DNA from: Macrococcoides bohemicum
GTDB lineage: Bacteria > Bacillota > Bacilli > Staphylococcales > Staphylococcaceae
Direction: 5' to 3'
Assembly: GCF_003259675.1 (NCBI RefSeq)
Contig: NZ_PZJG01000001.1
Coordinates: 372,001-436,000 of the forward strand
Length of the DNA: 64,000 nt
Under the pieces are notes generated by a model. It was not told where the DNA came from, searched no databases, and saw nothing but the letters and a program-made list of their open reading frames with translations. Position numbers and translations under genes: made by a program. Shown piece after piece: positions 4,627 through 48,576 of the stretch (position 1 is its first letter; each line of letters starts with the position of its first letter).

Positions 4627-4646
4627 ACCTTAAATTTACCTTAAAA
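4627..4646 (+). promoter_or_regulatory. Tandem-repeat operator, copy 1 (ABC exporter operon)
   Basis: ACCTTAAATTTACCTTAAAA: two ACCTTAAA half-sites with 11-bp period. The identical 20-mer also occurs at 25972-25991 and 48557-48576. It starts 56 bp upstream of a TATGAT -10 hexamer (4683-4688) that has no good -35, which suggests an activator-dependent promoter. The layout fits an OmpR/PhoB-family response regulator; the regulator itself is unknown. Confidence 0.65.
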
Positions 4647-4709
4647 GTTGTTGCCAAAAAGTAAATGACTGGATTTATCATGTATGATAAATATAACGGA
4701 GGTGTAAAA

Positions 4710-5639
4710 ATGGAAGAAAATCAATTTAGTTTACAGGTTAGCAATTTAAATAAGACGATTAACAAAAGGCACATTATTAAAGATTTAAACTTTGATGTAA
4801 AAAAGGGTGAAGTATTTGGCTTTTTAGGTCCGAATGGTGCTGGTAAAACAACCACTATTCGAATGATTGTTGGCCTTACAACACCTACTTCTGGAGATGT
4901 TAAAGTTTTTGGACGTTCGGTACTAACGAATCGTAGTGAAGTCATGAAAGATATCGGTGCAATCGTTGAGAATCCTGAATTATATCCATTTTTATCTGGT
5001 TTAGAGAATTTAAAGCAATTTGCACGCATGCAGACTGGTATTTCAAAAGAAGATATTGATCGTGTTGTCAAGTTAGTTGGGCTTGAAAATCGAATTAAAG
5101 AAAAAGTTGGTCGTTATTCATTAGGTATGCGACAACGATTAGGTTTAGCACAAGCTTTACTGCATAAGCCTAAAATATTGATTTTAGACGAACCGACCAA
5201 TGGATTAGATCCTTCGGGTATACGTGAAATTCGTGATTATATTAAAAAGCTAGCACGAGAAGAAAATATGTCAGTCATTGTATCAAGTCATTTAATGAGC
5301 GAAATGGAACTCATGTGTGATCGATTTGGGATTATCAAGAATGGACAGATGATTCGTATTGAAGATGTCAACACAGTAGTAACTGCAAGTGATGTTGTAA
5401 AACATGATTTTCATGTTTATCCAATCGATCAGGCAGTTAAATTCTTAAATGAAAAAGGTGTGCCATTTAAACTGAACAATGACTTGCTTTCAATAGATAT
5501 TGCTTCAAAAGATGTGCCGCAACTCATACGTGATTTAGTAAGCACTGATATTGATATATATAGTGTAACAAAAGAAAAACTTTCACTTGAAGATCGCTTC
5601 ATGGCATTAACAAAAGAAGGAGGCGGTAGCATTGTTTAA
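4710..5639 (+). CDS. ABC transporter ATP-binding protein (BcrA/drug-exporter type)
   Basis: ATPase subunit of an ABC-2 exporter (309 aa). Walker A GPNGAGKTT is at about 40-48, the signature SLGMRQRLG at about 138-146, Walker B ILILDEPTNGLD at about 155-166, and the switch His in VSSHLMSE follows. The C-terminal 90 residues form the extension seen in BcrA/NatA-like subunits. I start at ATG 4710, preceded by ACGGAGGTG; an ATG 45 bp upstream lacks a ribosome site. It overlaps the permease gene by 8 bp. The substrate is unknown; relatives export peptide antibiotics or act in envelope stress. A shared tandem-repeat operator lies upstream. Confidence 0.9.
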   Translation: MEENQFSLQVSNLNKTINKRHIIKDLNFDVKKGEVFGFLGPNGAGKTTTIRMIVGLTTPTSGDVKVFGRSVLTNRSEVMKDIGAIVENPELYPFLSGLENLKQFARMQTGISKEDIDRVVKLVGLENRIKEKVGRYSLGMRQRLGLAQALLHKPKILILDEPTNGLDPSGIREIRDYIKKLAREENMSVIVSSHLMSEMELMCDRFGIIKNGQMIRIEDVNTVVTASDVVKHDFHVYPIDQAVKFLNEKGVPFKLNNDLLSIDIASKDVPQLIRDLVSTDIDIYSVTKEKLSLEDRFMALTKEGGGSIV

Positions 5640-6621
5640 GTTAGTAGTTAATGAATATAATAAGTATTTTAATCGTCTTGGTACATATATTATGCTGGGT
5701 ATTATCGTTGCATTTATGATTTTAGGTGCAGTGTTGAACATGCAGTTTGCGAGTGGTATTGATAATAAGACTTATTCGGATAACTGGAAATCAGAAGTTA
5801 AAGAAGATATTTCGAAATATCAGAAACGATTAGCAGAAATCGCTAAAAAACCAGAAGATAAGAAATCTATGAAAGAATTTACGGATGAAATGACTTTAGG
5901 TGACCGAGTAGCTGAATTACAATTCTATCTGAAAAAAGATGTTCAACCACCAGCAAAGAATAATTTTTATCAGACACTCATAGATACAAATGGTTTTATT
6001 TCATTTGTTACAATCATGCTGATTATTATCTGCAGCAGTTTAATGTCACGTGAACATCAGCAAGGGACAATTAAGTTGTTATTAATTCGTCCTGCATCTA
6101 GATTAAAGATTTTCTTTTCTAAATTTATCTTTGCAATATTAGCATCACTTATATTTTTAGGTTTTACATATGTAATGACAGCTATAATCGCTTTCTTTAC
6201 AACAAAGATGAACCCAACAACTGAACTGGCTGTACAAGGCGATAAAGGTTATAAGATGATCAATGTATTTGAGTTATTAGGACAACAAATTTTTGCCAAC
6301 CTTATTTATATTATTACTTTCGCTATCGTCGCTTATGCTTTATCAGTTATTTTTAAGAATACTGCTTTAAGCTTAGGTGTAACCTTTGCGTTAATGTTCT
6401 TCGGGGATTTAATCATTATGTTCCTGCAAGGTAAAACGAAGCTAATTGAATTTTTATGGCCGGCTAACTGGAACTTATCTCAGTACTTACCGAATAATCC
6501 AGCAGAACTAGCAGATAAAGATTTATCATTTGGCTTTAGTTTAACGTATGATATTGTAATATTAATAATTATAACAGCAGTTGCAGCGTGGATCTTTAAT
6601 AAAAGAGATGTAGCAAACTAA
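5632..6621 (+). CDS. ABC-2 family permease, partner of the upstream ATPase
   Basis: Integral membrane protein (329 aa). One N-terminal membrane segment (about 18-38) is followed by a charged extracellular stretch of about 80 residues and five further membrane segments (about 121-138, 163-187, 218-239, 243-263, 302-318). This is the layout of BcrB/ABC2_membrane permeases with a large first loop. The conserved cytosolic SREHQQGTIKLLLIRPASR segment near 140-160 is typical of the family. It starts with TTG after GGAGG inside the end of the ATPase gene, indicating translational coupling. The operon ends at a hairpin shared with rarA. Confidence 0.85.
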   Translation: MFKLVVNEYNKYFNRLGTYIMLGIIVAFMILGAVLNMQFASGIDNKTYSDNWKSEVKEDISKYQKRLAEIAKKPEDKKSMKEFTDEMTLGDRVAELQFYLKKDVQPPAKNNFYQTLIDTNGFISFVTIMLIIICSSLMSREHQQGTIKLLLIRPASRLKIFFSKFIFAILASLIFLGFTYVMTAIIAFFTTKMNPTTELAVQGDKGYKMINVFELLGQQIFANLIYIITFAIVAYALSVIFKNTALSLGVTFALMFFGDLIIMFLQGKTKLIEFLWPANWNLSQYLPNNPAELADKDLSFGFSLTYDIVILIIITAVAAWIFNKRDVAN

Positions 6622-6623
6622 TA

Positions 6624-6655
6624 AACAGGCATTGAGTCATTACTCAATGCCTGTT
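6624..6655. terminator. Bidirectional terminator between exporter operon and rarA
   Basis: 14-bp inverted repeat AACAGGCATTGAGT/ACTCAATGCCTGTT. The rarA stop codon lies inside the hairpin. Confidence 0.85.
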
Positions 6656-7912
6656 TTGTTGTTGTTTAATATTATCATAAATTTGTTTGAGTTGTTGTTC
6701 TGCTTTACTAGTGCGCTTTGGTACATAGTATTGCTTTTTCTTTAGTGTATCCGGTAAATACTGTTGAGCGATAAATCCTGATTCAGCACTATGAGGATAT
6801 TGATATCCCACACCATTACCTAAATCTTTCGCACCTTGATAGTGGGCATCTTTTAAGTGTTTTGGTATGGCACCGATTTTACCGCTTCGTACGTCAGATA
6901 ATGCAGCGTCAATTGCTGAGATACCAGAATTTGATTTCGGTGATAAACAAAGTTCGATGACAGCTTGCGCAAGTGGTATGCGTGCTTCGGGAAATCCAAG
7001 TCGTTCAGCAGATTCAATCGCAGCAAGCGTTCTTGAGCCTGCTGAAGGAGATGCGAGTCCGATATCTTCGTAACTGATGACAAGTAAACGTCTGGCTATC
7101 GTCGGTAAGTCTCCTCCCTCAATGAGGCGCGCAAGATAATGCAGTGCCGCATCAACATCACTACCACGAATAGATTTTTGGAAAGCGCTCATCAAATCAT
7201 AGTGCATATCACCGTCTTTATCAAATTGAAAGCTGGATTTCTGTAAACAATCTTTCGCATCTTTTAATGTGATTTTTATTGGATTTTTAGTTTCAGCTGA
7301 AAGGATTGCCAGTTCTAATGCATTTAAGCTCGTTCTAATGTCGCCTTGCGCACTTTGCACGAAATGATTGATTGCTGCTTCATCAATTTCGATATCCTCA
7401 TTGCCATAACCTTTTTCCTTATCGTTTATCGCTCGAAGTAGGGCAGTATTAATATCGATTTCTGTTAAAGGATAAAGCTCAAATATTTGTGTTCTTGATC
7501 TTATCGCAGGATTGATTGCATGATATGGATTGCTTGTTGTTGCACCGATTAATATAATTTGACCATTTTCGAGATGAGGCAACAGAAAATCCTGTTTCCC
7601 TTTATCTAATCGATGAATTTCATCTAAAAGGAGAATAACCTGACCACTCATTTTAGCTTCTTCAGCTATCATCTGCATATCTTTTTTTGTATTGGTTACT
7701 GCGTTTAATTGTCTGAATTTCACTGCTGTACTGCCAGCAATCGCTTTGGCAATACTAGTTTTACCTACACCCGGAGGTCCGTAAAGAATCATAGAAGAAA
7801 GTCTTTTAGCATTGACCATTCTACGTATAATTCCTTGTTCACCTACAAGATGCTGCTGTCCAATGACTTCATCAATAGAAGAAGGACGCATTCTATATGC
7901 TAAAGGTTCCAA
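6644..7912 (-). CDS. rarA: Replication-associated recombination protein A (AAA+ ATPase)
   Basis: RarA/MgsA/WRNIP1 clamp-loader-like ATPase (422 aa) acting at stalled replication forks. Walker A GPPGVGKTS is at about 46-54, Walker B LLLDEIHR near 93-100, and sensor regions GATTSNP and RSRTQIF follow. The C-terminal half is the MgsA tetramerisation domain (PLAQAVIELCLSPKSNS, DAHYQGAKDLG). I choose TTG at 7912: AAAGGAG ends about 8 nt upstream, whereas the GTG at 7921 overlaps that ribosome site. It is divergent from cymR, as in Staphylococcus and Bacillus. Confidence 0.93.
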   Translation of the reverse strand: MEPLAYRMRPSSIDEVIGQQHLVGEQGIIRRMVNAKRLSSMILYGPPGVGKTSIAKAIAGSTAVKFRQLNAVTNTKKDMQMIAEEAKMSGQVILLLDEIHRLDKGKQDFLLPHLENGQIILIGATTSNPYHAINPAIRSRTQIFELYPLTEIDINTALLRAINDKEKGYGNEDIEIDEAAINHFVQSAQGDIRTSLNALELAILSAETKNPIKITLKDAKDCLQKSSFQFDKDGDMHYDLMSAFQKSIRGSDVDAALHYLARLIEGGDLPTIARRLLVISYEDIGLASPSAGSRTLAAIESAERLGFPEARIPLAQAVIELCLSPKSNSGISAIDAALSDVRSGKIGAIPKHLKDAHYQGAKDLGNGVGYQYPHSAESGFIAQQYLPDTLKKKQYYVPKRTSKAEQQLKQIYDNIKQQQNRH

Positions 7913-7996
7913 TATATTCACTCCTTTAATAAAAGTGTACCTTATTTTATGTCAAAATGTGATAAAATTGATTTATTGAAAAGGGGCGTAATAATT

Positions 7997-8416
7997 ATGA
8001 AAATTTCAACTAAAGGTAGATACGGTTTAACTTTGATGATATCTCTTGCTAAACGATATCAGACGAAACCAGTATCATTAAAAATTATCGCTGAAGAAAA
8101 TAATCTCAGTGATCTGTATTTAGAACAACTTGTAGGTCCGTTAAGAAATGCTGGTCTCATTAAAAGCGTACGAGGTGCAAAAGGTGGTTACATGTTAATG
8201 AAAGCCCCTAAAGAAGTGACAGCAGCAGATATTATCCGTTTACTTGAAGGACCAATTACACCTGTAGAAGGTATTGAAGATGAACCCCCAGCTCAAAAGC
8301 AATTGTGGATTGATATTCGCGACGCTGTAAAAAAAGTGCTGGATGAAACGACTCTGGAAGATTTAATGAACTATAAAGAAGATGATATTATCGAAGGATA
8401 CATGTTCTATATTTAG
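7997..8416 (+). CDS. cymR: Rrf2-family cysteine metabolism repressor CymR
   Basis: Winged-helix repressor (139 aa) that with CysK controls cysteine and sulfur-uptake genes in staphylococci and bacilli. The N-terminus MKISTKGRYGLTLM and the helix-turn-helix (IAEENNLSDLYLEQLVGPLRNAGLI, then VRGAKGGY) are near identical to what I recall of S. aureus CymR, and the C-terminus GYMFYI matches. ATG at 7997 follows AAAGGGG; an ATG 48 bp upstream has no ribosome site. The protein contains no cysteine at all, so the Cys25 redox switch reported in S. aureus is missing. Its iscS neighbour fits sulfur metabolism. Confidence 0.93.
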   Translation: MKISTKGRYGLTLMISLAKRYQTKPVSLKIIAEENNLSDLYLEQLVGPLRNAGLIKSVRGAKGGYMLMKAPKEVTAADIIRLLEGPITPVEGIEDEPPAQKQLWIDIRDAVKKVLDETTLEDLMNYKEDDIIEGYMFYI

Positions 8417-8425
8417 GAATAATCA

Positions 8426-8460
8426 AAAAAATAGTTATCGCATGTGCGATAACTATTTTT
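8426..8460. terminator. Bidirectional terminator cymR / monooxygenase
   Basis: Near-perfect palindrome AAAATAGTTATCGCA-TG-TGCGATAACTATTTT flanked by A and T runs, between convergent genes. Confidence 0.88.
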
Positions 8461-9454
8461 CTTCTGTAATTTCTTTTAACCATCTGAAACTTTGATATTG
8501 CTTATCAAGATCATATATATAACTTACGACAATGAATTCGTCAACGTTGAATTCATCTTGAAAAGCTTGTAATTTTTGTTTTACAGTTTCTTTAGAACCT
8601 ACAAAACCAGTTTGAGTACGAGATAATGCCATTTGTTTTTCTTGTGGACTCCAAATTGCATCCATATCTTTTACTGGTGGCTGCAGCGGTTGTCTTGTAT
8701 TTCGGATGATACTTAAGAAAAATTGATGCGTGGAAGTCGCCAGGTAATCAGCTTCTTCATCGGTTTCGCCGATAATCACATTCGTACCGACTATAACATA
8801 AGGTTTGTCCAGATATTCAGACTTCTGGAAAAGGTTGCGATAAATTGCGATTGCTTCTTTCATCTGTTCCGGTGCAAAGTGTCCGGCAAACGCATAAGGT
8901 AAACCGAGACGTGCAGCAAGGTGTGCTGAATCTGTTGAAGAACCAAGCACAAATATAGGTACATTTGTGTCAGCACCAGGATAAGCTTTTACAAATCCTT
9001 GTTTTTCTTCAGGTCCAAAATACTTTAACAATTCCTGAATTTCTTCAGGGAAAGTATATACACTATCGTGACGATCACGACGAAGAGCACTCGCAGTCAT
9101 CATATCCGTACCTGGTGCACGACCTAACCCTAGATTTAAACGATCAGGATAAATAGTAGCCATTGTACCAAACTGTTCAGCTACAACGAGTGGTGCATGG
9201 TTAGGTAACATGATACCACCTGAACCAACCTGTATTGATTTTGTATGTTGAAGCACATGATTAATAAGCACTACTGTTGCTGAACTCACAAGACTCGGTG
9301 TATTATGGTGCTCAGCAATCCAGTATCGGTTATAACCTAGTTCTTCAGCCAGTTGAGCCAGTGATACCACCTGATCGATTGCATCCTTGTTTGTATCGCC
9401 TTTTCTTACTGGCGCTAAATTCAAGATAGAAATAGGAATATTGAGATTAGACAT
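8453..9454 (-). CDS. Luciferase-like flavin monooxygenase (LLM family, YhbW-like)
   Basis: Cytosolic flavin-dependent oxidoreductase of the bacterial luciferase superfamily (333 aa, usual length). Family landmarks are the start [22 protein letters not shown] near 45, [20 protein letters not shown] near 78-97, and GLGRAPGTD near 110, all seen in group 1 LLM proteins. The substrate is unknown. ATG at 9454 follows AAAAGGAG with 8-nt spacing. It is a single gene, divergent from iscS across a 331-bp gap. A role in sulfur salvage is conceivable from the neighbours but unproven. Confidence 0.85.
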
Positions 9455-9785
9455 ATAATTAACTCCTTTTAATATAGTACCGATAGTTTATCACTTAGGT
9501 CGGGAATTATGATAATTATATGCTTGTTGATAGTGGATGAAATTTTAGCGGCATCGTAGTAATAATAGTTCTGATAGCGCCATAGCTAAAAATTTTTGCG
9601 AAATTAATTTATATTTTTCTATTTTGTATAGAATAAACTATCTATTATATATAGTTGAAAATCGTTAAAGTATTTTTCAAAATGAGATTCTTTACAATTT
9701 TTACAATTAAGTTAATAAGATAGTTTTTTTTCATAAAGGGTGTTAAGATAAGTTATTGAAAAAATTGAAAGGATGTTCATAAATC
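9455..9785. other. 331-bp AT-rich intergenic region between divergent monooxygenase and iscS
   Basis: No ORF or stable RNA is recognised. It holds two tandem inverted repeats: TTCTAT/ATAGAA at 9617-9633 and AACTAT/ATAGTT at 9636-9656. A possible -35 (TTTACA 9691-9696) with TAA-rich -10 candidates points toward iscS. The length and repeats suggest regulatory content, but no known operator could be assigned. Confidence 0.4.
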
Positions 9786-10925
9786 ATGAAGGTATATGCA
9801 GACTATGCAGCAACTACTAATGTTGCGCCGGAAGTTGTATCTGAAATAACTGAAGTATTAAGTGATCACTTTGGTAATGCTTCGTCAATACATCATATCG
9901 GGCGTGATGGTCGTCGAATTTTAGATCTGGCACGTATGAAAATTGCAAAAATAATGAACGCATCACCAAGAGAAATTATCTTTACTAGTGGCGCTACTGA
10001 ATCGAATAATCTGGCGATTAAAGGTATTGCATACCAGAATCAGCATAAAGGTAAACATTTGATTACCTCTTCTATTGAGCATCACTCTGTATTACACGTC
10101 TTTGAGCAACTTGAAAAAGAAGGGTATGAAGTCACATATTTGCCTGTGGATGCACAAGGCTTTGTAACAGTTGATAAATTGAAAGATGCACTTCGTGAAG
10201 ATACGATATTAGTTTCTATTATGTTTGGTAACAACGAAGTTGGTACTGTTCAATCAGTTGACGAAATTGCTGAACTATTAAAAGAGCATCAGGCAATATT
10301 TCATACTGATGGCGTTCAGACGATTGGTCATATGCCGATCGATTTAAAGTCACTAAATGTAGATTTATTTACCCTCACGGCACATAAGTTCTATGGCCCA
10401 AAAGGTGTGGGTTTACTATATGTGAAAGATAAGACGCCATTACAATTTCAGCAGCTTGGAGGCGCACAAGAGACTAAACGTCGTGCGGGTACAGAAAATA
10501 TCGCTTATATCAGCGGTATGGCAAAAGCATTAGAAATTGCTACAGATAATATTGAACAATCAAGTTTAAAATTGATACAATTGAAACAACATTTTATTAA
10601 CGCGCTTCAGTCTTACGATATTCCATTTGAATTGAATGGCGATATAAATGCATCATTACCTCACATCACTAATCTTTATTTTCCATTCAGCGATGTTGAG
10701 AAAATGCTTACAATCCTTGATATGAATGGTGTCTATGTATCAAGTGGTTCTGCATGTACTGCTGGTAGTATAGAACCGAGTCATGTACTTACTGCAATGT
10801 TTGGTGAACATCCACGTACAAAACAGTCGATACGATTTAGTTTTTCACATCAAATGACAGAAGAAGATATTGATTATATTGCATTACAAATTAAAAAAAT
10901 TTATGAAATGAATAGAAATGAGTAG
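9786..10925 (+). CDS. iscS: Cysteine desulfurase (IscS/NifS family)
   Basis: PLP enzyme (379 aa) that takes sulfur from cysteine as a persulfide, here most likely to feed MnmA for tRNA 2-thiouridine. N-terminal YADYAATT, the PLP region TSGATESNN, the Schiff-base lysine in AHKFYGPKG (about 201) and the mobile-loop cysteine in SSGSACTAGS (about 324) are present. ATG at 9786 follows AAAGGATG. The next gene is mnmA after 6 bp, the classic Firmicute pair (B. subtilis yrvO-trmU), which supports a dedicated role in tRNA thiolation. Confidence 0.94.
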   Translation: MKVYADYAATTNVAPEVVSEITEVLSDHFGNASSIHHIGRDGRRILDLARMKIAKIMNASPREIIFTSGATESNNLAIKGIAYQNQHKGKHLITSSIEHHSVLHVFEQLEKEGYEVTYLPVDAQGFVTVDKLKDALREDTILVSIMFGNNEVGTVQSVDEIAELLKEHQAIFHTDGVQTIGHMPIDLKSLNVDLFTLTAHKFYGPKGVGLLYVKDKTPLQFQQLGGAQETKRRAGTENIAYISGMAKALEIATDNIEQSSLKLIQLKQHFINALQSYDIPFELNGDINASLPHITNLYFPFSDVEKMLTILDMNGVYVSSGSACTAGSIEPSHVLTAMFGEHPRTKQSIRFSFSHQMTEEDIDYIALQIKKIYEMNRNE

Positions 10926-12050
<1,125 letters not shown>

Positions 12051-12055
12051 ATTTC

Positions 12056-12083
12056 AAAGGAGACAGCAATGTCTTCTTTTTTA
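12056..12083 (+). terminator. Terminator after mnmA
   Basis: 8-bp stem AGGAGACA/TGTCTTCT with GCAA loop (one G-U pair) followed by T-run. Confidence 0.75.
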
Positions 12084-12128
12084 TTTTTTGATATAATAAT
12101 ACAATGAATATAATAGAGGAGAACGCTA

Positions 12129-12788
12129 ATGAATGACGAACGCTTAATGCAATTGATTGAAACAAAACAATATGAAGAGGCACTAAAAATACTAATAGAA
12201 GCAATTGATGAAGAACCTGAAGAAGTGACACATTATATTAATATGGGAACGATTCTTCTGGATTCAAATCAACCGATTGAAGCGGAACGTTTCTTTCAAA
12301 AAGCTATTACTGTAGACCCGACTCATGGTGGTGCATACTATGGTCTGGCTAATATATATTACAATGCGGATCGATTTGAAGAAGCGATGAAATTGTATCA
12401 TAAAGCCATTGAAAATGGACTGGAAGATGGTGATACATATTATATGCTAGGTATGTCATTTGTTAATCAAAGTGATTTCACGTCAGCATTACCATTTTTA
12501 ATGCGTTCACATGAACTCAAACCGGATGACACTGAGATAACATTCCAATATGGTCTTGTGATGTGTCAGATGAATATGTTTGAAGAAGCATCAAAGACTT
12601 TAGAGCGTGTATTAAGTGATAATCCAGATCATACAGACGCGATTTATAATAAGGCACTTGCAGATTATATGATAACAGAAAATATCGATGCAGCGATTGT
12701 TGAATTTGAGCGTGTTATTGACATTCAGCCTGATCATCTGCTAGCTGGCCATGCATTGAAAACATTTAAAGCAATGAAGGAGGAATAA
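12129..12788 (+). CDS. Tetratricopeptide-repeat protein (YrrB-like)
   Basis: Soluble protein (219 aa) made almost entirely of TPR units. About six 34-residue helical repeats carry the A..Y...G....A...A...P pattern (for example EAERFFQKAITVDPTHGGAYYGLANIYY). TPR arrays are protein-binding scaffolds, and the partner here is unknown. The same gene sits between mnmA and recD2 in Bacillus and Staphylococcus. It has its own -10-like TATAAT at 12092-12097 and AGAGGAG before ATG. recD2 begins 2 bp after its stop. Confidence 0.85.
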   Translation: MNDERLMQLIETKQYEEALKILIEAIDEEPEEVTHYINMGTILLDSNQPIEAERFFQKAITVDPTHGGAYYGLANIYYNADRFEEAMKLYHKAIENGLEDGDTYYMLGMSFVNQSDFTSALPFLMRSHELKPDDTEITFQYGLVMCQMNMFEEASKTLERVLSDNPDHTDAIYNKALADYMITENIDAAIVEFERVIDIQPDHLLAGHALKTFKAMKEE

Positions 12789-12790
12789 AC

Positions 12791-15211: not shown

Positions 15212-15212
15212 G

Positions 15213-15242
15213 TTGACGGTAAGCATGTGATTCAATTATAAT
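15213..15242 (+). promoter_or_regulatory. Promoter of alaS leader
   Basis: TTGACG at 15213-15218 and TATAAT at 15237-15242, spacing 18 bp, placing the T-box transcript start near 15249. Confidence 0.65.
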
Positions 15243-15248
15243 TTAACT

Positions 15249-15440
15249 AATTCAAATTTAAAGCTGAGTAGGTAATCCCTCAAGACCTAGAGACATATCG
15301 GTTGGTGAAAGATATGCTTGATATTACTGAAGCTACTTTATCTTATGATTACGAATATTAATCGAGTGATGACTTTGTCATAACTAGGGTGGTACCGCGA
15401 ACACGTTCGTCCCTTTTTTAGGGATAACGTGTATTTTTTT
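15249..15440 (+). promoter_or_regulatory. T-box riboswitch upstream of alaS
   Basis: Leader of about 190 nt ending with the canonical T-box AGGGTGGTACCGCG (15386-15399). A terminator with arms ACACGTTCGTCCCT/AGGGATAACGTGT and a T-run at 15400-15440 follows. It should sense uncharged tRNA-Ala, inferred from the downstream gene. Confidence 0.9.
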
Positions 15441-15461
15441 ATTTTAAGGGAGAAGATAATA

Positions 15462-25971: not shown

Positions 25972-25991
25972 ACCTTAAATTTACCTTAAAA
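25972..25991 (+). promoter_or_regulatory. Tandem-repeat operator, copy 2 (prohibitin-like operon)
   Basis: Exact copy of the 20-mer at 4627 and 48557. A TATAAT (26019-26024) lies 47 bp from the motif start, and TAAAAT (26027-26032) lies 55 bp from it, the latter close to the 56-bp spacing of the other two copies. Confidence 0.65.
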
Positions 25992-26067
25992 ATATCAATT
26001 TATTATTTTTAAACAACATATAATGGTAAAATAGATGTAACACTTCTTTATATAGAGGGGGATTTAT

Positions 26068-26373
26068 TTGAAACTATTTCTTATATGGTTATTTATTTTA
26101 GTAATCGTGCTGATAGTTCTTTATTTTGTGTTAAGTCGTCTTTATGATTATTTTAGCCATAGAGAAGCAAAAGAACAGATTGAACAACAAAATATCGAAA
26201 ATTTACGCAAATATGAATTGAATCAGGCTGCATTAAAAAGTAAAAAGAAAATGCTTGAAAGTGAAATATTTGCAAAGACTGGTATGATTGGTGACATAGC
26301 AGAAATAAAGCATTTAGAAAAGGAGCTGGAAGAAGTTAATGAACTCATCGACAGAATCAGTAAAGACAATTAG
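26068..26373 (+). CDS. Small membrane-anchored coiled-coil protein, partner gene of SPFH protein
   Basis: Protein of 101 aa. One N-terminal membrane segment (about 1-23, LFLIWLFILVIVLIVLYFVL) is followed by a charged, heptad-like helical region rich in Glu/Lys/Leu (about 35-100). It starts with TTG at 26068 after GAGGGGG. No family is recognised. Its last 35 bp overlap the downstream SPFH gene, so the two are coupled and the products may interact. The tandem-repeat operator lies about 95 bp upstream. Confidence 0.75.
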   Translation: MKLFLIWLFILVIVLIVLYFVLSRLYDYFSHREAKEQIEQQNIENLRKYELNQAALKSKKKMLESEIFAKTGMIGDIAEIKHLEKELEEVNELIDRISKDN

Positions 26374-27187
26374 ACCTAATAACAGAAAACCAATCAATAG
26401 AAAGTCGTTATTTATGACGACTATTCTCGGGATATTGTTATTATTAGGCATTATGTTAGCATTTATGTCAATAGAAAAAGTACCTCAAGGATACCAAGCG
26501 GTTATCTATTCAGTCAGCGGTGTTAAAGAAGAGACTAAACCTGCGGGCTGGCACTTTATATTTCCGTTAGACAAAGCTGTACATTACCCAATTCGTACGC
26601 AGACGAAAGAATACACAGATTTAAATGTAGCCACTAGTGACGGTAAAAATTTAAATATGGATATTAGTGTTAACTATCATGTGGATCCTACAAAAGTTGT
26701 GAAGATCTTTAATAAATTTGGTAACGCTGATATTACAGGACTTGAAAATGGGTTCCTGCGAACGCGTGTATTAGATGGTTTACGCCAATCAGTTGCTAAA
26801 TTCTCAGTCATTGAGACGTTCGGTGTAAAAACAGGAGAAATTAAGAAAAATACGTTAGAACAGTTACAGCAAAACTTAACAGATCAAGGATTTATTGTTG
26901 AAGACATTGCGATTTCCAGCCCAAAAGCTGATAAAGCAACACAAGCTGCAATTGACGAACGTGTAAAAGCGAATCAGGAATTAGAAAGAGCAAAGACAGA
27001 TAGAGCAATTGCTGAGCAAAATGCTAAGAAAAAACAAATTGAGGCAGAAGGTCAGGCTAAAGCCAATGCTATATTAGAAAAATCTTTGACAGATAAAATC
27101 ATTCGTAAACAAATGATTGATAAATGGGACGGTAAGCAACCGATTACGATTGGTGGAGAAGGCGTTATCGTTGATCTGAATAAGTAG
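26339..27187 (+). CDS. SPFH/prohibitin family membrane protein
   Basis: Protein of 282 aa. A basic N-terminus and one membrane segment (about 25-46) precede an SPFH/Band 7 domain (about 48-225: VPQGYQAVIYSVSG, GWHFIFPLDKAVHYPIRTQTKEY, LRQSVAKFSVIE). An Ala/Glu-rich coiled coil with KKKQIEAEGQAKANAILE follows. Such proteins form large membrane-bound ring scaffolds in lipid microdomains. ATG 26339 follows AAAGGAG inside the upstream gene. It is a second SPFH protein in this window besides FloA and shares FloA's upstream operator motif. Confidence 0.85.
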   Translation: MNSSTESVKTIRPNNRKPINRKSLFMTTILGILLLLGIMLAFMSIEKVPQGYQAVIYSVSGVKEETKPAGWHFIFPLDKAVHYPIRTQTKEYTDLNVATSDGKNLNMDISVNYHVDPTKVVKIFNKFGNADITGLENGFLRTRVLDGLRQSVAKFSVIETFGVKTGEIKKNTLEQLQQNLTDQGFIVEDIAISSPKADKATQAAIDERVKANQELERAKTDRAIAEQNAKKKQIEAEGQAKANAILEKSLTDKIIRKQMIDKWDGKQPITIGGEGVIVDLNK

Positions 27188-36769: not shown

Positions 36770-36770
36770 A

Positions 36771-36792
36771 AAAGCGACCCTCAGGTCGCTTT
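36771..36792. terminator. Bidirectional terminator holA / rpsT
   Basis: AAAGCGACC-CTCA-GGTCGCTTT. Confidence 0.87.
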
Positions 36793-36803
36793 ATTTATTA
36801 GTA

Positions 36804-37052: not shown

Positions 37053-37112
37053 AATGTCACCTCCTAGAAATGTCTTGCACTTAAAATGGATATTTTGATT
37101 GCAACAAGAAAT

Positions 37113-37141
37113 ATTTTATCAAATTCAGACAGTATATGCAA
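37113..37141 (-). promoter_or_regulatory. Promoter of rpsT
   Basis: On the minus strand TTGCAT and TAAAAT are separated by 17 bp, about 60 bp before the S20 start. Confidence 0.6.
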
Positions 37142-37160
37142 TCTATATTTTTAAAACTCA

Positions 37161-37189
37161 TTGAACAACTGTATAAGAGTTGTTATAAT
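37161..37189 (+). promoter_or_regulatory. Promoter of lepA with inverted repeat
   Basis: TTGAAC (37161-37166) and TATAAT (37184-37189), 17-bp spacing. An inverted repeat AACAACT/AGTTGTT (37164-37184) fills the spacer and touches both hexamers. Confidence 0.65.
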
Positions 37190-37227
37190 CAAATATACGT
37201 ACAATTTAAGAAAGTTGGGCAAAAAAG

Positions 37228-39051: not shown

Positions 39052-39055
39052 TAAA

Positions 39056-39096
39056 AAAACACGATTGTTTCTTTCAAAGAGCAATCGTGTTTTAAT
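39056..39096 (+). terminator. Terminator after lepA
   Basis: AAAACACGATTG/CAATCGTGTTTT stem with T-rich tail. Confidence 0.87.
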
Positions 39097-39111
39097 TTTG
39101 GAGGTGCTGGC

Positions 39112-40227: not shown

Positions 40228-40279
40228 AATCACGGTTTTTAAGAACTTTTTTTCATTAATAATTTTTTAGGTGTTATAT

Positions 40280-40296
40280 GTTGACATACTTTGACC
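40280..40296 (-). promoter_or_regulatory. Putative CtsR operator upstream of hrcA
   Basis: On the minus strand GGTCAAAGTATGTCAAC is close to the CtsR heptad repeat RGTCAAA-NAN-RGTCAAA, with two mismatches in the second heptad. It covers the -35 TTGACA (40281-40286). Dual CtsR and HrcA control of the dnaK operon is known in staphylococci. Confidence 0.65.
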
Positions 40297-40309
40297 AATT
40301 TGATAAATT
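40281..40309 (+). promoter_or_regulatory. Promoter of the hrcA-grpE-dnaK-dnaJ operon
   Basis: TTGACA at 40281-40286, 17-bp spacer and TAAATT at 40304-40309. The CIRCE element begins 5 bp after the -10. Confidence 0.7.
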
Positions 40310-40313
40310 GTAA

Positions 40314-40340
40314 TTAGCACTCGAAGTGATAGAGTGCTAA
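40314..40340 (+). promoter_or_regulatory. CIRCE operator (HrcA binding site)
   Basis: Perfect TTAGCACTC-N9-GAGTGCTAA, the invariant CIRCE inverted repeat, just upstream of hrcA and overlapping the predicted transcription start. Confidence 0.97.
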
Positions 40341-40351
40341 CGAGGTGAAAT

Positions 40352-41299
40352 ATGCTAACAGATAGACAATTACATTTATTAAACGTAATTGTTGAGGATT
40401 TTGTTGATAGTGGATCACCTATCGGTTCAAAGAAACTGATTGAGCAACATAATTTAAATGTTAGTCCTGCAACAATTAGAGCTGAGATGAAGCGACTAGA
40501 AGACCATGGTTTAATTGAAAAAATGCATTCTTCTAGTGGTAGAATCCCTTCAGAAGCAGGATACAAATTTTATGTTGAAGCGTTGCAAAATGAATTTCCT
40601 TATGAAGAGAATTTTTTTATTGATCAGACAAACTTTGTCGATTTTAGAATGCTCGCTAAGGATATAGCGATGGATACTCAATATCTATCAATTGCAACGA
40701 CAACTGAAATCGATAAACGATCAATTTCACAAATTCATTTGACGTATTTAACACCGACAAATTTGGTATTAATTATTGTCTATGAAAATGGTAATGTTGA
40801 ACATCAACAAATTTCATGGCAAGTACGTTTAACTAGACAAGAGATTGAGCGCATGAACAATTATCTAAATCAGAATTTACTTGCAATTATTGAAGGTAAT
40901 ATTCATTTAGATGTAAATCATCAAGGTTTTAAACAGTTACCACTCTCACATTTAAAGTCTGAAATCGTTAAGAAGGCTCATACTACGTCACATACTATTT
41001 ATTTTGAAGGTAGAGAGTATTTATATGAAATTATAGATTCAGATAATTTAAATGCTGTAAAAGAAACTTTAAAATTGATTGATTCTGATGACTTACCGGG
41101 TATATTAAGTCAGGTTGATTCTGATCATATTCAGGTAACTTTAGGTCAGGAAATTGATAAAAACTTAGAAGGCATCTCAATTGTAACTTCACCGATTCAT
41201 CTTCATAATATGAATGGTAAGATTGCGGTCATTGGACCGACACAAATGAGTTACCGAAAAGTCTTTAATAAATTAGCAAGTATTAATCACTTGTTATAA
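40352..41299 (+). CDS. hrcA: Heat-inducible transcription repressor HrcA
   Basis: Repressor (315 aa) that binds CIRCE and is kept active by GroE. The N-terminal winged helix has [30 protein letters not shown] and [38 protein letters not shown]. The GAF-like and C-terminal regions end with [19 protein letters not shown] at 40352 is just downstream of CIRCE, so the gene is autoregulated. grpE starts 13 bp downstream. Confidence 0.96.
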
Positions 41300-41312
41300 G
41301 GAGGTAAATATC

Positions 41313-41894
41313 TTGTCTGAAAAACATGAAGAACAAGTATATGAAAAAACTGATCAAACAGATGAGTCGAATGAAACAGTTGAACAGGATATGACAGAAA
41401 AAGTTGCACCAGAAGCACCTGTTGAAGCTTCTGAAGAAGAAACAACTGATGAAGTCACTGAAACAAAACAATTATTAGAAGCAGCTGAAGAGAAATATTT
41501 ACGTCTTTATGCTGAATTTGAAAACTATAAAAAACGTACACGTGCAGAATTAGATACAGAAAGAACGTATCGTGCGCAAAGTGTACTGCGTGACATTTTA
41601 CCAGCAATTGATAATATTGAACGCGCACTTGCACAAAAAGGTGAAAGTGAAGAATTTAAATCTTTACATAAAGGTGTAGAGATGGTTTATGAAAGTCTGC
41701 TGAGTTCATTGAAAGATAATGGCCTTGAAGTGATTGAAGCACTTGACAAGCCATTTGATCCGAATTTACATCAAGCTGTAATGCAGGAGCGGGATCAAGA
41801 TAAAGCATCAGGCATTGTTTTAGATGAGCTTCAAAAAGGTTATAAATTGAAAGAACGTGTTTTACGACCTTCGATGGTTAAAGTAAACGAGTAA
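41313..41894 (+). CDS. grpE: Nucleotide exchange factor GrpE
   Basis: DnaK co-chaperone (193 aa). An acidic, disordered N-terminus (about 1-50) leads into the long coiled coil ([24 protein letters not shown]). The C-terminal beta domain has [20 protein letters not shown] and [16 protein letters not shown]. It starts with TTG at 41313 after AAGGAGG. Its stop codon lies at the foot of a perfect inverted repeat that separates it from dnaK. Confidence 0.95.
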
Positions 41895-41926
41895 TTGTTT
41901 ATTAAATAATCATTTAATAAACAATT
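41893..41926 (+). repeat. Perfect 15-bp inverted repeat between grpE and dnaK
   Basis: AATTGTTTATTAAAT-AATC-ATTTAATAAACAATT. Arms are 41893-41907 and 41912-41926, with a 4-nt loop. It is A/T-rich with no clear T-run, so it is more likely an mRNA processing, stability or partial attenuation element than a full terminator. Confidence 0.75.
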
Positions 41927-41949
41927 TTCAAAATTAATTTTTAAAATAA

Positions 41950-43791
<1,842 letters not shown>

Positions 43792-43804
43792 TAAGTAATA
43801 ACAT

Positions 43805-43838
43805 AAAGTCAAAGTCAATTTATTGACTTTGGCTTTTT
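43805..43838 (+). terminator. Hairpin after dnaK
   Basis: AAAGtCAAAGTCAA/TTGACTTTGGCTTT with T-tail. It may lower transcription into dnaJ. Confidence 0.75.
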
Positions 43839-43882
43839 CTTTCAGCATATTTAACTAAGTAGTTAGAAAAGGAGAATGAAAA

Positions 43883-45001
43883 GTGGCGAAAAGAGATTAT
43901 TATGAAGTTCTAGGTTTACAAAAAGGTGCTTCTAAAGAAGAAATTAAACGTGCATATAAAAAACTTTCAAAAAAATATCATCCGGACATCAATAAAGAAG
44001 AAGATGCAGATGTAAAGTTCAAAGAAATTGCAGAAGCATATGAAGTATTAAGTGACGATCAGAAGAAAGCACAGTATGATCAATTTGGTCACGCAGGTAT
44101 GGGTCAAGGTGCTGGATTTGGTGGTCAGGACTTTGGCGGTTTCGGTGGATTTGAAGATATCTTCAGTTCGTTCTTTGGCGGTGGTGCCAGACGCGATCCT
44201 AATGCCCCTCAAAAAGGTGATGACTTACAATATCAGATGAATATATCTTTTGAAGAAGCAGTATTTGGCGCTGAAAAAGAAATTTCAGTTAAAAAAGAAG
44301 TAACTTGTGAGACATGTGATGGCAGCGGTGCAAAACCTGGAACTGAAGTACATACTTGTAAAACGTGTCACGGACGTGGTAATGTACAGGTGGAACAAAA
44401 TACACCGTTTGGTCGTGTAAGAACTGAACGACCATGTCATGATTGTGGTGGTACGGGTAAAACATTTGATGAAAAATGTCATGATTGTGGCGGCACAGGT
44501 CGAGTAATTAAAACCGTTAAAATTAAAGTCACTGTGCCAGCTGGTGTTGATACTGGACAACAAATCCGTTTAGCTAATCAAGGTGAGCCGGGTATTAATG
44601 GTGGTCCTGCTGGTGATCTATATGTCGTATTCAAAGTTGCTGACCATGCTCATTTTGAACGTGCAGGGGAAGATATTTTCTATACATTAAACTTATCAAT
44701 TGCTCAAGCGGCACTTGGTGATGAAGTGGAAGTGCCTACGCTGGAAGGAAAAGCGAAGATTACAATTCCATCAGGTACTCAAACTGGTAAACGTTTCAGA
44801 TTAAAAGAAAAAGGCATTCAAAATGTACACGGCTATGGTAAGGGCGACTTATATGTCACTGTCAATGTAGTAACACCTGTGAAGATGACAAATAGACAAG
44901 CGGAATTATTAAGAGAATTTGCTGAAATAGATGGTACGGAAATTAACGAACAACCTTCAAACTTTTTCGATAAAACAAAACGCTTCTTTAAAGGGGAATA
45001 A
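43883..45001 (+). CDS. dnaJ: Chaperone DnaJ (Hsp40)
   Basis: Type I J-protein (372 aa). J-domain at 1-70 with HPD near 33-35, a Gly/Phe-rich linker (about 72-105), and four CxxCxGxG zinc repeats (about 140-215: [32 protein letters not shown]). Two C-terminal substrate-binding domains follow. It starts with GTG at 43883 after AAGGAG. prmA begins 2 bp after its stop. Confidence 0.97.
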
Positions 45002-45003
45002 TA

Positions 45004-45939
45004 ATGAACTATAAAGAAATAACATTGATGATTAACCATGAGCTTGAACCATTTATTGCAGATATATTAAATGAAGTGGGTGCAAATGGTGTCGTTATAG
45101 AAGATAGTTTAGAACTTGTTAAAGGTCGTATTGAAACGTACGGTGAAATCTATGAGTTAAATCCAGATGATTACCCAGAATCTGATGTACGTGTAAAAGT
45201 GTATTTTAGTGAATTAGATTATTCTGATGCAATCATTGATGAAATCAAAGAAAAAATTAATGGATTACAGGATGTTGAAGTTACAAGATTAGAAATTACT
45301 ACTGATGAGGTTCAGGAAGAAGACTGGGCTAATGAATGGAAAAATCATTTTCATGCATTTAAAGCTTCAGAAAGATTTGTTGTTGTACCAAGCTGGGAAA
45401 ATTATGAGAACCAAAACGATGACGAGTTTATCATTAAGCTTGATCCGGGCATGGCATTTGGTACAGGTGATCATGCTACAACATCGATGTGTTTAAAATT
45501 AATAGAGAAATATGTCCAACCAAATCAATCTGTTATTGATGTCGGTACTGGTTCAGGCATTTTAAGTATAGCAGCGCATCAATTAGGTGCTGCACCCATT
45601 AAAGCGTTAGATCTGGATAGTGTGGCAGTACGTGTTGCTGTGGATAACTTTGAAAAAAATGATTGTGCGGATGCGATTCAAGCGGAACCAGGCAACTTAT
45701 TAAAAGGTGAAAGTGAAAAACGTGATGTCATTTTTGCAAATATATTAGCGCATATCGTAGATTTAATGATTGATGATAGCATTGCATTATTAAATGACAA
45801 TGGTCTACTGATCACTTCAGGTATCATTTTAGAAAAAGAAGAAATGATCGTTGAACATTTGGAACGCGTTGGTTATAAGATAGAAGAAATTATGCGTGAA
45901 AATGGCTGGATTGCGATTGCCGCTAGAAAAGAGGCATAA
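45004..45939 (+). CDS. prmA: Ribosomal protein L11 methyltransferase
   Basis: SAM-dependent lysine methyltransferase (311 aa) that trimethylates L11. The N-terminal substrate-recognition domain is followed by LDPGMAFGTGDHATT near 156, the SAM motif VIDVGTGSGILSIAA near 177, and the NILAHI motif near 245. It follows dnaJ closely, a conserved order, and rsmE begins 1 bp after it. Confidence 0.95.
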   Translation: MNYKEITLMINHELEPFIADILNEVGANGVVIEDSLELVKGRIETYGEIYELNPDDYPESDVRVKVYFSELDYSDAIIDEIKEKINGLQDVEVTRLEITTDEVQEEDWANEWKNHFHAFKASERFVVVPSWENYENQNDDEFIIKLDPGMAFGTGDHATTSMCLKLIEKYVQPNQSVIDVGTGSGILSIAAHQLGAAPIKALDLDSVAVRVAVDNFEKNDCADAIQAEPGNLLKGESEKRDVIFANILAHIVDLMIDDSIALLNDNGLLITSGIILEKEEMIVEHLERVGYKIEEIMRENGWIAIAARKEA

Positions 45940-45940
45940 C

Positions 45941-46678
45941 ATGCAGCGTTATTTTCTAAATACTGAAGCTGAAAATAATAAAAGCTATACAATTATCGAT
46001 AGAGAGGATGTACATCATATAAAGAATGTGATGCGTCAAACTGCTGGAAGTAAGATCATCATTAATTTTATCAATGCTAGTTTTATAAGTGAAATTACTG
46101 CTATTGATAATCAAATTACAGTAATAACCCGTGAAAAGTTAGAGCTGAATACAGAATTACCTGTACAAGTTACGATCGCAAGCGGTTTTTTAAAGAACGA
46201 TAAATATGAATGGATGATTCAAAAAGCGACTGAACTCGGTGCGTATCGCTTCCTGCCCTTTATATCTGATCATACTGTGATTAAGTTGGATGAAAAGAAA
46301 ATGATAAAAAAGGTAGAAAGATATCAGAAAATAATAAAGGAGGCAGCAGAACAAAGTTATCGTCAGATTATACCTGAAATTAAAGTTGTAAAGAATAGTA
46401 ATGCTTTAGCTGCATTATTAGATGATTATGATGTTGTACTCGTTGCTTACGAAGAATCTGCTAAAAATGATGAAACGTCTGTGCTCAGTCAAACATTAAA
46501 AAGATTAGAATCTGGTACGAAGGTAATCGTTATCTTTGGGCCGGAAGGTGGATTGAGTGAAACAGAAATTAAACAATTTAATGCACCCACAATTGGTTTA
46601 GGACCTAGAATACTACGTGCAGAAACTGCCCCACTATATTTACTGAGCGCGATAGGTTATCATATTGAACTATCATAA
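45941..46678 (+). CDS. rsmE: 16S rRNA (uracil-1498-N3)-methyltransferase
   Basis: SPOUT-fold methyltransferase (245 aa). The N-terminal PUA-like part starts MQRYFLNTEAENNKSY, then KNDKYEWMIQKATELGAYRFLPF, and the knotted SAM site has IFGPEGGLSETEI and LGPRILRAETAPLYLLSAI. I choose ATG 45941 after AGAGGCATAAC; an earlier in-frame ATG lies deep within prmA. A strong hairpin follows. Confidence 0.95.
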   Translation: MQRYFLNTEAENNKSYTIIDREDVHHIKNVMRQTAGSKIIINFINASFISEITAIDNQITVITREKLELNTELPVQVTIASGFLKNDKYEWMIQKATELGAYRFLPFISDHTVIKLDEKKMIKKVERYQKIIKEAAEQSYRQIIPEIKVVKNSNALAALLDDYDVVLVAYEESAKNDETSVLSQTLKRLESGTKVIVIFGPEGGLSETEIKQFNAPTIGLGPRILRAETAPLYLLSAIGYHIELS

Positions 46679-46687
46679 AAATTTATT

Positions 46688-46730
46688 ATAAAAGACAGTG
46701 TGATGGACATTGCATCCCACTGTCTTTTAT
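46688..46730 (+). terminator. Terminator after rsmE
   Basis: ATAAAAGACAGTG...CACTGTCTTTTAT long stem with an inner GATG/CATC extension. Confidence 0.85.
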
Positions 46731-46814
46731 AATGATTAGATTGAAATTCCTATCAATTAATGTTATTTTTATATAATGTGATTTATTGAACGAAAATAAA
46801 ATGAGGTGAAATAA

Positions 46815-48170
46815 ATGGCAACTGTTGCCTTCCATACTTTAGGATGTAAAGTAAACCATTATGAAACTGAAGCCATCTGGCAATTATTTAAAGAAGCATC
46901 ATATGAGCGTGTAGATTTTGAAACTAATGCAGACGTTTATGTGATTAATACTTGTACCGTGACAAACACTGGGGATAAGAAAAGTCGTCAGGTTATTCGT
47001 CGTGCCATCAGACGTAATCCGGAAGCGGTTATCTGTGTAACTGGTTGTTATGCTCAAACATCGTCAGCTGAAATTATGGATATTGCGGGTGTTGATATCG
47101 TTGTCGGTACACAAGATCGAAATAAGATGTTACCGTATATTGAACAGTTTAGAAATGAAAGACAACCGATTAACGGTGTCACAAATATCATGAAGAATCG
47201 TACGTACGAAGAACTAGACGTACCATATTTTACTGATAGAACACGTGCATCACTGAAGATTCAGGAAGGCTGTAATAACTTCTGTACATTCTGTATCATC
47301 CCGTGGGCAAGAGGATTGATGCGTTCAAGAGACCCGAAAGAAGTCGTAAGACAAGCAACACAGCTTGTTCAATCTGGTTATCAGGAAATTGTCTTAACAG
47401 GTATCCACACAGGTGGCTATGGTGAAGATTTAAAAGATTACAATTTAGCACAACTGCTTCGAGATTTAGAAACGATTGATGGATTAAAACGTATCCGTAT
47501 CTCATCTATTGAAGCAAGTCAATTAACGGATGAAGTGATTGATGTCATCGATAAAAGCGAGAAGGTTGTACGTCACTTACATATTCCACTACAATCTGGG
47601 AGCGATACAGTATTAAAACGTATGCGTCGTAAATATACGATGGAACACTTCTCAGAAAGATTAAGAAAATTACATGCAATTATGCCTGGACTTGCTGTGA
47701 CAAGCGACGTCATTGTTGGATTCCCTGGTGAAACAGAAGAGGAATTCCAGGAAACATATGATTTTATTCAGGAACATGGTTTTTCTGAACTGCATGTTTT
47801 TCCATATTCAATGAGAACAGGTACACCAGCAGCGCGTATGACGGATCAAATTGATGAGAATGTGAAAAATGAACGCGTACATCACTTAATTAGTCTGTCA
47901 GATCAGCTTGCTAAAGAATATGCTAGCAGATTTGAAGGTGAAGTATTAGAAGTTATTCCTGAAGAGAAAGCAAGCGTTGAAAATATGCTGGTCGGTTACA
48001 CAGATAATTACTTAAAAGTACAATTTGAAGCTGACGAAAGCTTAATCGGTGAACTTGTAAAAGTTAAGATAACTGAAGCCGGCTATCCGATGAATAAAGG
48101 ACAATTTGTTAAAGTAATCCCTAATATATATAAAAAGACAGAAGAAAATAAGGAACTTACTGTAAATTAA
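46815..48170 (+). CDS. mtaB: tRNA (N6-L-threonylcarbamoyladenosine-C2)-methylthiotransferase MtaB
   Basis: Radical SAM enzyme (451 aa; YqeV) that converts t6A37 to ms2t6A. The N-terminal UPF0004 domain has HTLGCKVN and VINTCTVTN cysteines and VTGCYAQ. The radical SAM motif CNNFCTFC lies near 154-161. A TRAM domain occupies the last 65 residues. ATG follows AATGAGGTG. Its substrate t6A links it functionally to TcdA. Confidence 0.95.
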   Translation: MATVAFHTLGCKVNHYETEAIWQLFKEASYERVDFETNADVYVINTCTVTNTGDKKSRQVIRRAIRRNPEAVICVTGCYAQTSSAEIMDIAGVDIVVGTQDRNKMLPYIEQFRNERQPINGVTNIMKNRTYEELDVPYFTDRTRASLKIQEGCNNFCTFCIIPWARGLMRSRDPKEVVRQATQLVQSGYQEIVLTGIHTGGYGEDLKDYNLAQLLRDLETIDGLKRIRISSIEASQLTDEVIDVIDKSEKVVRHLHIPLQSGSDTVLKRMRRKYTMEHFSERLRKLHAIMPGLAVTSDVIVGFPGETEEEFQETYDFIQEHGFSELHVFPYSMRTGTPAARMTDQIDENVKNERVHHLISLSDQLAKEYASRFEGEVLEVIPEEKASVENMLVGYTDNYLKVQFEADESLIGELVKVKITEAGYPMNKGQFVKVIPNIYKKTEENKELTVN

Positions 48171-48180
48171 AAAATGAGTG

Positions 48181-48209
48181 TTGACCGTAGATTGATAATC
48201 TATTATAAT
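48181..48209 (+). promoter_or_regulatory. Promoter of rpsU
   Basis: TTGACC (48181-48186), 17-bp spacer, consensus TATAAT (48204-48209). Transcription should start near 48216, giving a leader of about 70 nt. Confidence 0.75.
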
Positions 48210-48217
48210 ATTTTAGT

Positions 48218-48249
48218 ACATAGAAATATTTATTTAAATAAATCTATGT
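48218..48249 (+). promoter_or_regulatory. Leader hairpin of rpsU
   Basis: Inverted repeat ACATAGA...TCTATGT enclosing the AT palindrome ATTTATTTAAATAAAT, located just after the predicted start site and 24 bp before the ribosome site. Confidence 0.55.
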
Positions 48250-48288
48250 TTAATATGTTCCGTTGATATTTGGAGGGAGGGAAATTAA

Positions 48289-48465
48289 ATGTCTAAAACT
48301 GTAGTTCGTAAAAACGAATCAATCGAAGATGCTTTACGTCGTTTCAAACGTACTGTTTCAAAAAATGGTACAATTCAAGAAGTTCGTAAACGTGAATTCT
48401 ACGAAAAACCAAGTGTTAAACGTAAAAAGAAATCAGAAGCAGCACGTAAACGTAAATTTAAATAA
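48289..48465 (+). CDS. rpsU: 30S ribosomal protein S21
   Basis: Small basic ribosomal protein (58 aa). It starts [21 protein letters not shown] and ends in the basic tail [18 protein letters not shown] at 48289 follows the strong GGAGGGAGGG. In Bacillus rpsU is followed by yqeY; here a terminator and then the nfeD-floA operon follow directly. Confidence 0.97.
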
Positions 48466-48498
48466 TAATTGCTCCCTCAAATATTATTTATAGATAGG

Positions 48499-48525
48499 CA
48501 CGCCACATTTGTGGTGTGTTTTTTT
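48499..48525 (+). terminator. Terminator after rpsU
   Basis: CACGCCAC-ATTT-GTGGTGTG (one G-U pair) then TTTTTTT. Confidence 0.87.
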
Positions 48526-48556
48526 ATATAGTTTAAAAACATATATCTTAAGGGCT

Positions 48557-48576
48557 ACCTTAAATTTACCTTAAAA
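48557..48576 (+). promoter_or_regulatory. Tandem-repeat operator, copy 3 (NfeD-FloA operon)
   Basis: Exact copy of the 20-mer at 4627 and 25972. It starts 56 bp upstream of TATAAT (48613-48618), the same distance as at the ABC exporter promoter. Confidence 0.65.

Follow-up and report, generated by a model that had tools for sequence, protein, structure and literature searches.

A tandem-repeat box in front of flotillin, SPFH and exporter operons of Macrococcoides bohemicum as the predicted operator of an OmpR-type two-component system

The 64,000-nt stretch of the Macrococcoides bohemicum genome analyzed here (the window, from whose first letter the coordinates of its boxes are counted) carries the same short tandem repeat, hereafter the box, in front of three operons. 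A search of the window recovered the 20-mer ACCTTAAATTTACCTTAAAA exactly at 4627-4646, 25972-25991 and 48557-48576, all on the + strand, just where the first-pass annotation of this DNA had placed three identical copies, and no fourth match at up to three mismatches; shuffled windows contained a mean of 0.02 matches and none of the shuffles reached three. The box is made of two 8-bp half-sites in the arrangement ACCTTAAA-N3-ACCTTAAA, 19 bases in all, and thus shows the 11-bp period that had been described. All three copies are intergenic and lie upstream of an operon, as the annotation had also stated, and each is on the same strand as its operon.

Box 1 (4627..4646, +, forward, exact match) precedes a two-gene ABC exporter, composed of an ATP-binding protein (4710..5639, +; PF00005, E 1.2e-33) and an ABC-2 type permease (5632..6621, +; PF12679, E 5e-18). 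Box 2 (25972..25991, +, forward, exact match) precedes an SPFH operon, in which a protein of 101 amino acids (aa) with a hydrophobic N-terminal stretch by eye and no Pfam match above cut-off (26068..26373, +) is followed by a prohibitin-like SPFH/Band_7 protein (26339..27187, +; PF01145, E 2.3e-29). Box 3 (48557..48576, +, forward, exact match) precedes nfeD-floA, encoding an NfeD family membrane protein of 209 aa (48639..49268, +; PF01957 and PF24961) and the flotillin FloA (49278..50279, +; PF12127, E 6.9e-162; NF010186 above cut-off). The gene behind them, for a 193-aa protein with no Pfam match above cut-off (50291..50872, +), sits at the place that yqfB has in the gene order of Bacillus subtilis. 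Probable -10 hexamers were found 37 nt past the 19-mer at boxes 1 (TATGAT, 4683..4688, +) and 3 (TATAAT, 48613..48618, +), and both hexamers previously pointed out at the middle site, TATAAT at 26019 and TAAAAT at 26027, are present too. The orthologous promoters of two relatives (G006 and G007) alter the hexamer at 26019 and keep TAAAAT at conserved spacing, so that the latter (26027..26032, +, 36 nt past the 19-mer) is the likelier -10. By eye, these promoters lack a good -35, in agreement with the earlier description.

The regulon exceeds these three operons. In the whole 2.41-Mb genome (G000), the pattern ACCTTAAANTTACCTTAAA matched nine sites at up to one mismatch, none at exactly two and nine at exactly three, while the same pattern read backwards gave 10 matches in total at up to three mismatches and none at up to one; the three-mismatch sites are thus noise. 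The genome-wide motif search proposed in the first-pass annotation, which had seen three of the nine boxes, yielded nine near-perfect sites against none for the control, and these are mostly intergenic. Eight of the nine lie between likely genes, two of them (C24:66463 and C13:187352) also touching antisense open reading frames (ORFs) that we took as spurious, and the ninth, C26:16730, overlaps the end of a short DUF805 ORF by 7 bases. Outside the window, the box at C13:89956 precedes a 64-aa protein, that at C24:66463 two DUF805 proteins, that at C26:15997 a 129-aa protein with the short DUF805 ORF behind it, that at C26:16730 a 47-aa ORF, that at C13:80489 a 193-aa protein and that at C13:187352 sppA together with an RDD-family gene. 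Most of these look membrane-protein-like, by eye where there is no Pfam match. The DUF805 ORF between the two boxes at C26:15997-16748 (L021) is only 77 aa long and covers about one third of the profile, and the two-box interval is 733 bases long there vs 1116 in G006 and 1167 in G007, a possible sign that the gene is truncated in the window genome.

Direct repeats with one-turn spacing are the usual target of winged-helix OmpR regulators. We listed the regulators with a PF00486 domain (OmpR-type), the only type compared, in 17 genomes and took all 67 of them from eight genomes, four with boxes (G000, G005, G010 and G023) and four box-less (G001, G002, G004 and G020). Reciprocal BLAST of these 67 regulators gave a single ortholog group that was present in all four box genomes and in none of the box-less ones. 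It corresponds to a two-component system (TCS) consisting of a 224-aa regulator with receiver and winged-helix domains (PF00072, PF00486) followed by a 545-aa HisKA/HATPase kinase (PF00512, PF02518), located at G000:C30:40348-42656 (locus L089; regulator L089:1680-2354:-). Its recognition helix, NTVMVHIRKLREK, was identical or differed by one V/I exchange in all the regulators read from three groups, namely five from the genus of the window (g1), five from a second group (g2) and four from the closest relatives outside the family (f6); the longer stretch reads DDNTVMVHIRKLREK in the five g1 regulators, DENTVMVH(I/V)RKLREK in the five g2 species and DDNT(V/I)MVHIRKLREK in the four f6 regulators, and DDNTLMVHIRTLRKK in staphylococcal relatives. 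The nine other OmpR-type regulators of the window genome have different recognition helices. The box is thus very probably the operator of this one TCS, with its OmpR-type regulator as the predicted binding protein.

The distribution of the kinase and of the boxes was surveyed in 108 Staphylococcaceae genomes, counting boxes at up to one mismatch. Boxes were found in 15 genomes (g1 6/9, g2 6/6, g4 1/1, g3 0/8, and g5 2/84 with one site each) and the full-length kinase in exactly 12, all of which have boxes. These 12 genomes together contain 86 sites and no control site, and the other 96 contain four sites and two control sites. Six staphylococci have a partial match to the kinase core only, and no further kinase match at E <= 1e-50 was obtained in an order-wide search of 157 genomes. 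Among 11 matched loci, 10 are named Macrococcus or Macrococcoides kinase records (goetzii, epidermidis, caseolyticum Ani-LG-066, equipercicus, carouselicus, brunensis, hajekii, bovicus, sp. TMW 2.2395 and DPC7161) and the eleventh is a cyanobacterial locus that matches weakly; the kinase of the window genome is 89-90% identical to those of goetzii and epidermidis.

In several lineages the box also lies in front of the regulator gene itself. We recovered it with 0-2 mismatches upstream of this gene in all five g2 species records (M. carouselicus, brunensis, hajekii, bovicus and equipercicus, all of g2 but G014 being covered) and in four of seven staphylococcal relatives (G032, G043, G071 and G096), where the regulator shares 37-41% identity with that of the window genome. 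In all four f6 genomes (G309, G329, G354 and G512), where the regulator is 51% identical, ACCTTAAANTAATCTTAAA lies between the regulator gene and a divergent DUF418-like gene. These four genomes have four exact-pattern boxes (0 mismatches) at the regulator gene and another two at dlt, which makes six in total.

The targets are conserved as well. Conservation upstream of orthologs, which the first-pass annotation had made a touchstone of its proposal, was found for the genes of the ABC ATPase, NfeD, the 101-aa/Band_7 pair, SppA, DUF805, and the 129-aa, 64-aa, 47-aa and 193-aa proteins; orthologous boxes mostly keep their distance and orientation, an exception being those of DUF805 genes, at about 30 to 160 nt. 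Box 1 is kept upstream of the orthologous ATPase gene in nine further TCS-bearing genomes, and box 2 in G005, G006 and G007 without change of orientation and, reversed, in G014. The NfeD box, the one surveyed most fully, is found with 0-4 mismatches, 59-65 nt from the start, in all 11 other TCS genomes, so that nfeD-floA is boxed in 12/12 TCS genomes vs 0/4 TCS-less Macrococcus. In the NfeD promoters of the latter (G001, G002, G004 and G008), and of G020 and G095, the best match has six mismatches, which is the noise level. The four TCS-less Macrococcus form one clade nested among TCS bearers, which indicates a single loss of the TCS, and no site at up to one mismatch was found in the genomes of this clade except two in G008, on small contigs.

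The spacing between box and promoter was analyzed on 92 distinct sites at up to two mismatches, with a strict -10 criterion and distances taken from the 19-mer. In the forward sense, a -10 lies 36-38 nt away in 43/92 sites (other three-nt windows: mean 4.0, maximum 7), and in the reversed sense 20-21 nt away in 21/92 (other two-nt windows: mean 1.9, maximum 6); 62 sites have a -10 at one or both preferred distances, two of them at both. Taking the -10 to start at position -12, forward boxes would extend from about -68 to -50 and reversed boxes from about -52 to -34. The tandem half-sites with their 11-bp period lie upstream of the -10, as for OmpR/PhoB operators, and the two distances would fit an activator with two settings acting on promoters that by eye have no good -35. 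The reversed SPFH box of G014 (L034/L216), opposite in orientation to the one at 25972 in the window, has no evident -10 at 20-21 nt.

Co-occurrence with the TCS, the boxes at the regulator gene in relatives and the promoter geometry together support an OmpR/PhoB-type reader. The same three lines favor two proposals of the first-pass annotation, an OmpR/PhoB regulator acting on the direct repeat and a regulon joining membrane scaffolds with an exporter, the latter now extending to nine boxes. In the mechanism that we envisage, the extracellular part of the kinase would sense envelope damage and the kinase would phosphorylate the regulator, a head-to-tail dimer of which would bind both 8-bp half-sites, spaced by one helical turn. 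The bound regulator would then activate sigma-A promoters having a -10 and, by eye, no good -35, resulting in coordinated expression of the FloA and SPFH scaffolds, the ABC exporter, SppA-RDD, DUF805 and small membrane proteins. The boxes, their conservation and spacing, the co-occurrence with the TCS, the placement at the regulator gene in relatives and the absence after TCS loss were computed; envelope stress as the signal is what we infer from the target genes only.

Several observations weigh against this reading. A box also occurs in three of the 96 genomes that lack the full-length kinase. Those of G008 are on small contigs that match plasmids, that of G032 is at the gene of a related regulator, and G063 has a single one-mismatch site. 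DPC7161 (G023) has boxes and yet a differing helix, DDNIIMVYIRKLRQ (NIIMVYIRKLRQ). The regulator gene has no box in three of the seven staphylococcal relatives (G024, G059 and G077), and none at up to three mismatches in five g1 records, including the window genome, and in DPC7161 (g4). Under the strict criterion, a -10 is missing from both preferred distances at 30 of the 92 sites. SppA is boxed only in g1 (G000, G003, G005, G006 and G007), its box not being found in the other TCS genomes checked (G009-G014 and G023). In f6, 19 nt separate the box from the start codon of the regulator gene, and the -10 on the DUF418 side misfits the 20-21 nt spacing. Finally, the joint loss of TCS and boxes within Macrococcus, being a single event, counts as one phylogenetic contrast.

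The likeness to the streptococcal CiaR repeat noted in the first-pass annotation raises the possibility that the reader is a true CiaR ortholog controlling a streptococcal-type CiaRH regulon. The hexamers and their spacing do match on the other strand, since CTTAAA-N5-CTTAAA in the box is TTTAAG-N5-TTTAAG on the opposite one, and PMC4938410 describes the binding of the CiaR homolog of Bacillus anthracis (of the pair BAS0540-0541) to this same repeat upstream of its own gene. Other features differ: by our own count, the recognition helix TVMVHIRKLREKL shares 6/13 residues with that of CiaR, VVEVYVSKVRKKL, the box has conserved bases beyond the CiaR repeat, and the distance from the last TTTAAG to the -10, which is 10 nt at CiaR promoters (PMC3091779), is here 22-23 nt (reversed) or 36-38 nt (forward). 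We therefore disfavor CiaR itself and consider this alternative very unlikely, as judged from these motifs. The system shares with CiaRH and BAS0540-0541 the TTTAAG-N5-TTTAAG repeat, an OmpR-type regulator and, in some members, a box at its own gene, and differs from them in recognition helix, -10 spacing and target set.

The box could otherwise be read by a non-OmpR regulator gained and lost together with the TCS, the latter being merely a co-regulated target. The regulator comparison covered PF00486 members only, and a box in front of the TCS gene in several lineages is what would be expected of a target; on the other hand, one-turn direct repeats are usual for OmpR regulators, the recognition helix is conserved across the lineages that have conserved boxes, and the six exact f6 boxes are concentrated at the regulator gene and dlt. 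We regard this as quite unlikely. Still less probable, in our view, is that a repressor would bind the box, or that the box would be a generic promoter element upstream that no dedicated regulator reads: the position of the f6 box is one more typical of repression, but the Macrococcus boxes, placed at two preferred upstream distances from promoters with no good -35 by eye, fit activation, and a generic element would not be expected to vanish along with one TCS.

The predicted regulon is new but of a known kind, an OmpR-type TCS with a direct-repeat operator, and no published account of it was found in the open-licence literature searched. The best family lead is YrkPQ of B. subtilis and HexRK of Clostridioides difficile, from the DUF418 linkage in relatives; PMC10128005 gives HexK as homologous to YrkQ and a DUF418 protein as part of the YrkP regulon. 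The box lies between a DUF418 gene and the regulator in G032 and in the four f6 genomes, and before a DUF418 gene in G009 and G011; PF04235 (DUF418) was matched beside the box at loci L043 and L036, and the same layout was recognized by sequence resemblance at L045 and the four f6 loci. The link to a DUF418 (YrkO-like) gene, seen here in relatives, and small regulons rich in membrane genes are what these systems have in common; the Macrococcus regulon is larger, with floA, SPFH, sppA and DUF805 genes, and none of the nine boxes of the window genome precedes a DUF418 gene.

The target set itself overlaps with the sigma-W regulon of B. subtilis, to which the SPFH-type gene ydjI belongs. That regulon has the floA operon (yqeZ-yqfA-yqfB) and the two-gene ABC transporter ythPQ as core targets and sppA-yteJ as a secondary one (PMC3498285). 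Control there is exerted by an extracytoplasmic function (ECF) sigma factor, whereas SigW (TIGR02948) was not found above cut-off in any of eight Macrococcus genomes tested, four of which gave weak sub-cut-off matches; it is above cut-off in the f6 genomes tested (G309, G329 and G512). In the window, the 338 bases preceding nfeD contain no TGAAAC-N16-CGT, the sigma-W-like promoter sequence. In f6, this strict pattern occurs about 1.4 kb ahead of floA in G309, G354 and G512 and not in G329, and no box was found within 1.5 kb of floA in any of the four genomes. The SigW distribution and the f6 floA promoters, compared with the boxed nfeD of the window, support a takeover of sigma-W targets, which they do not prove: a Macrococcus ancestor without sigma-W would have recruited former sigma-W membrane-defence genes, promoter by promoter, to a small TCS. 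We give this scenario somewhat less than an even chance. The few boxes of distant relatives, at the regulator gene beside DUF418 and at dlt, would then reflect the small starting TCS; FloA would have joined early (boxed in g1, g2 and g4) and sppA-RDD late (g1 only), and one Macrococcus clade would later have lost the TCS along with the boxes. The regulator pair seems to do in Macrococcus what a different regulator does in Bacillus. If the takeover were true, one could trace how a response regulator replaced an ECF sigma factor in controlling a stress regulon. With a defined operator, a list of targets and a clade that serves as natural knockout, the signal of an unnamed TCS becomes directly testable, and the expression of a bacterial flotillin would be tied to a dedicated sensor in a staphylococcal relative. 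In the close relatives G006 and G007, genes with a weak, sub-cut-off SigW-family match (G006:C26:118479, E 6.7e-10; G007:C12:9045, E 3.6e-10) lie about 1.9 and 2.4 kb from a box.

Some boxes deserve separate mention. The two exact boxes of G008, which lacks the TCS (L214:4124 and L215:3833), are on contigs C4 and C5 of 12,038 and 11,834 bases, near a tyrosine recombinase gene. C5 shares 901 identical bases with plasmids from Macrococcus sp. 19Msa1099 and Macrococcoides caseolyticum, and one of the matching mobilizable Macrococcus plasmids carries annotations for a lactococcin 972 family bacteriocin and an ABC protein. Plasmids of this kind may derive from hosts with the TCS. The one-mismatch box of the staphylococcus G063 (C11:763253, L037), 28 nt before a gene that looks MerR-like by eye, is probably due to chance. 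In the Macrococcus genome G013 (L047), 97 nt separate a box from a 43-aa DltX-like ORF, which is followed by a dltA-like gene; in G354 (L296) and G329 (L304), both of f6, a box lies about 310 nt before a dltA-like gene. Boxes at L046, L204, L049, L173, L185 and L209 precede secreted-looking proteins without Pfam family, and the products at the first three, which by eye have hydrophobic C-terminal stretches, might be bacteriocin-like.

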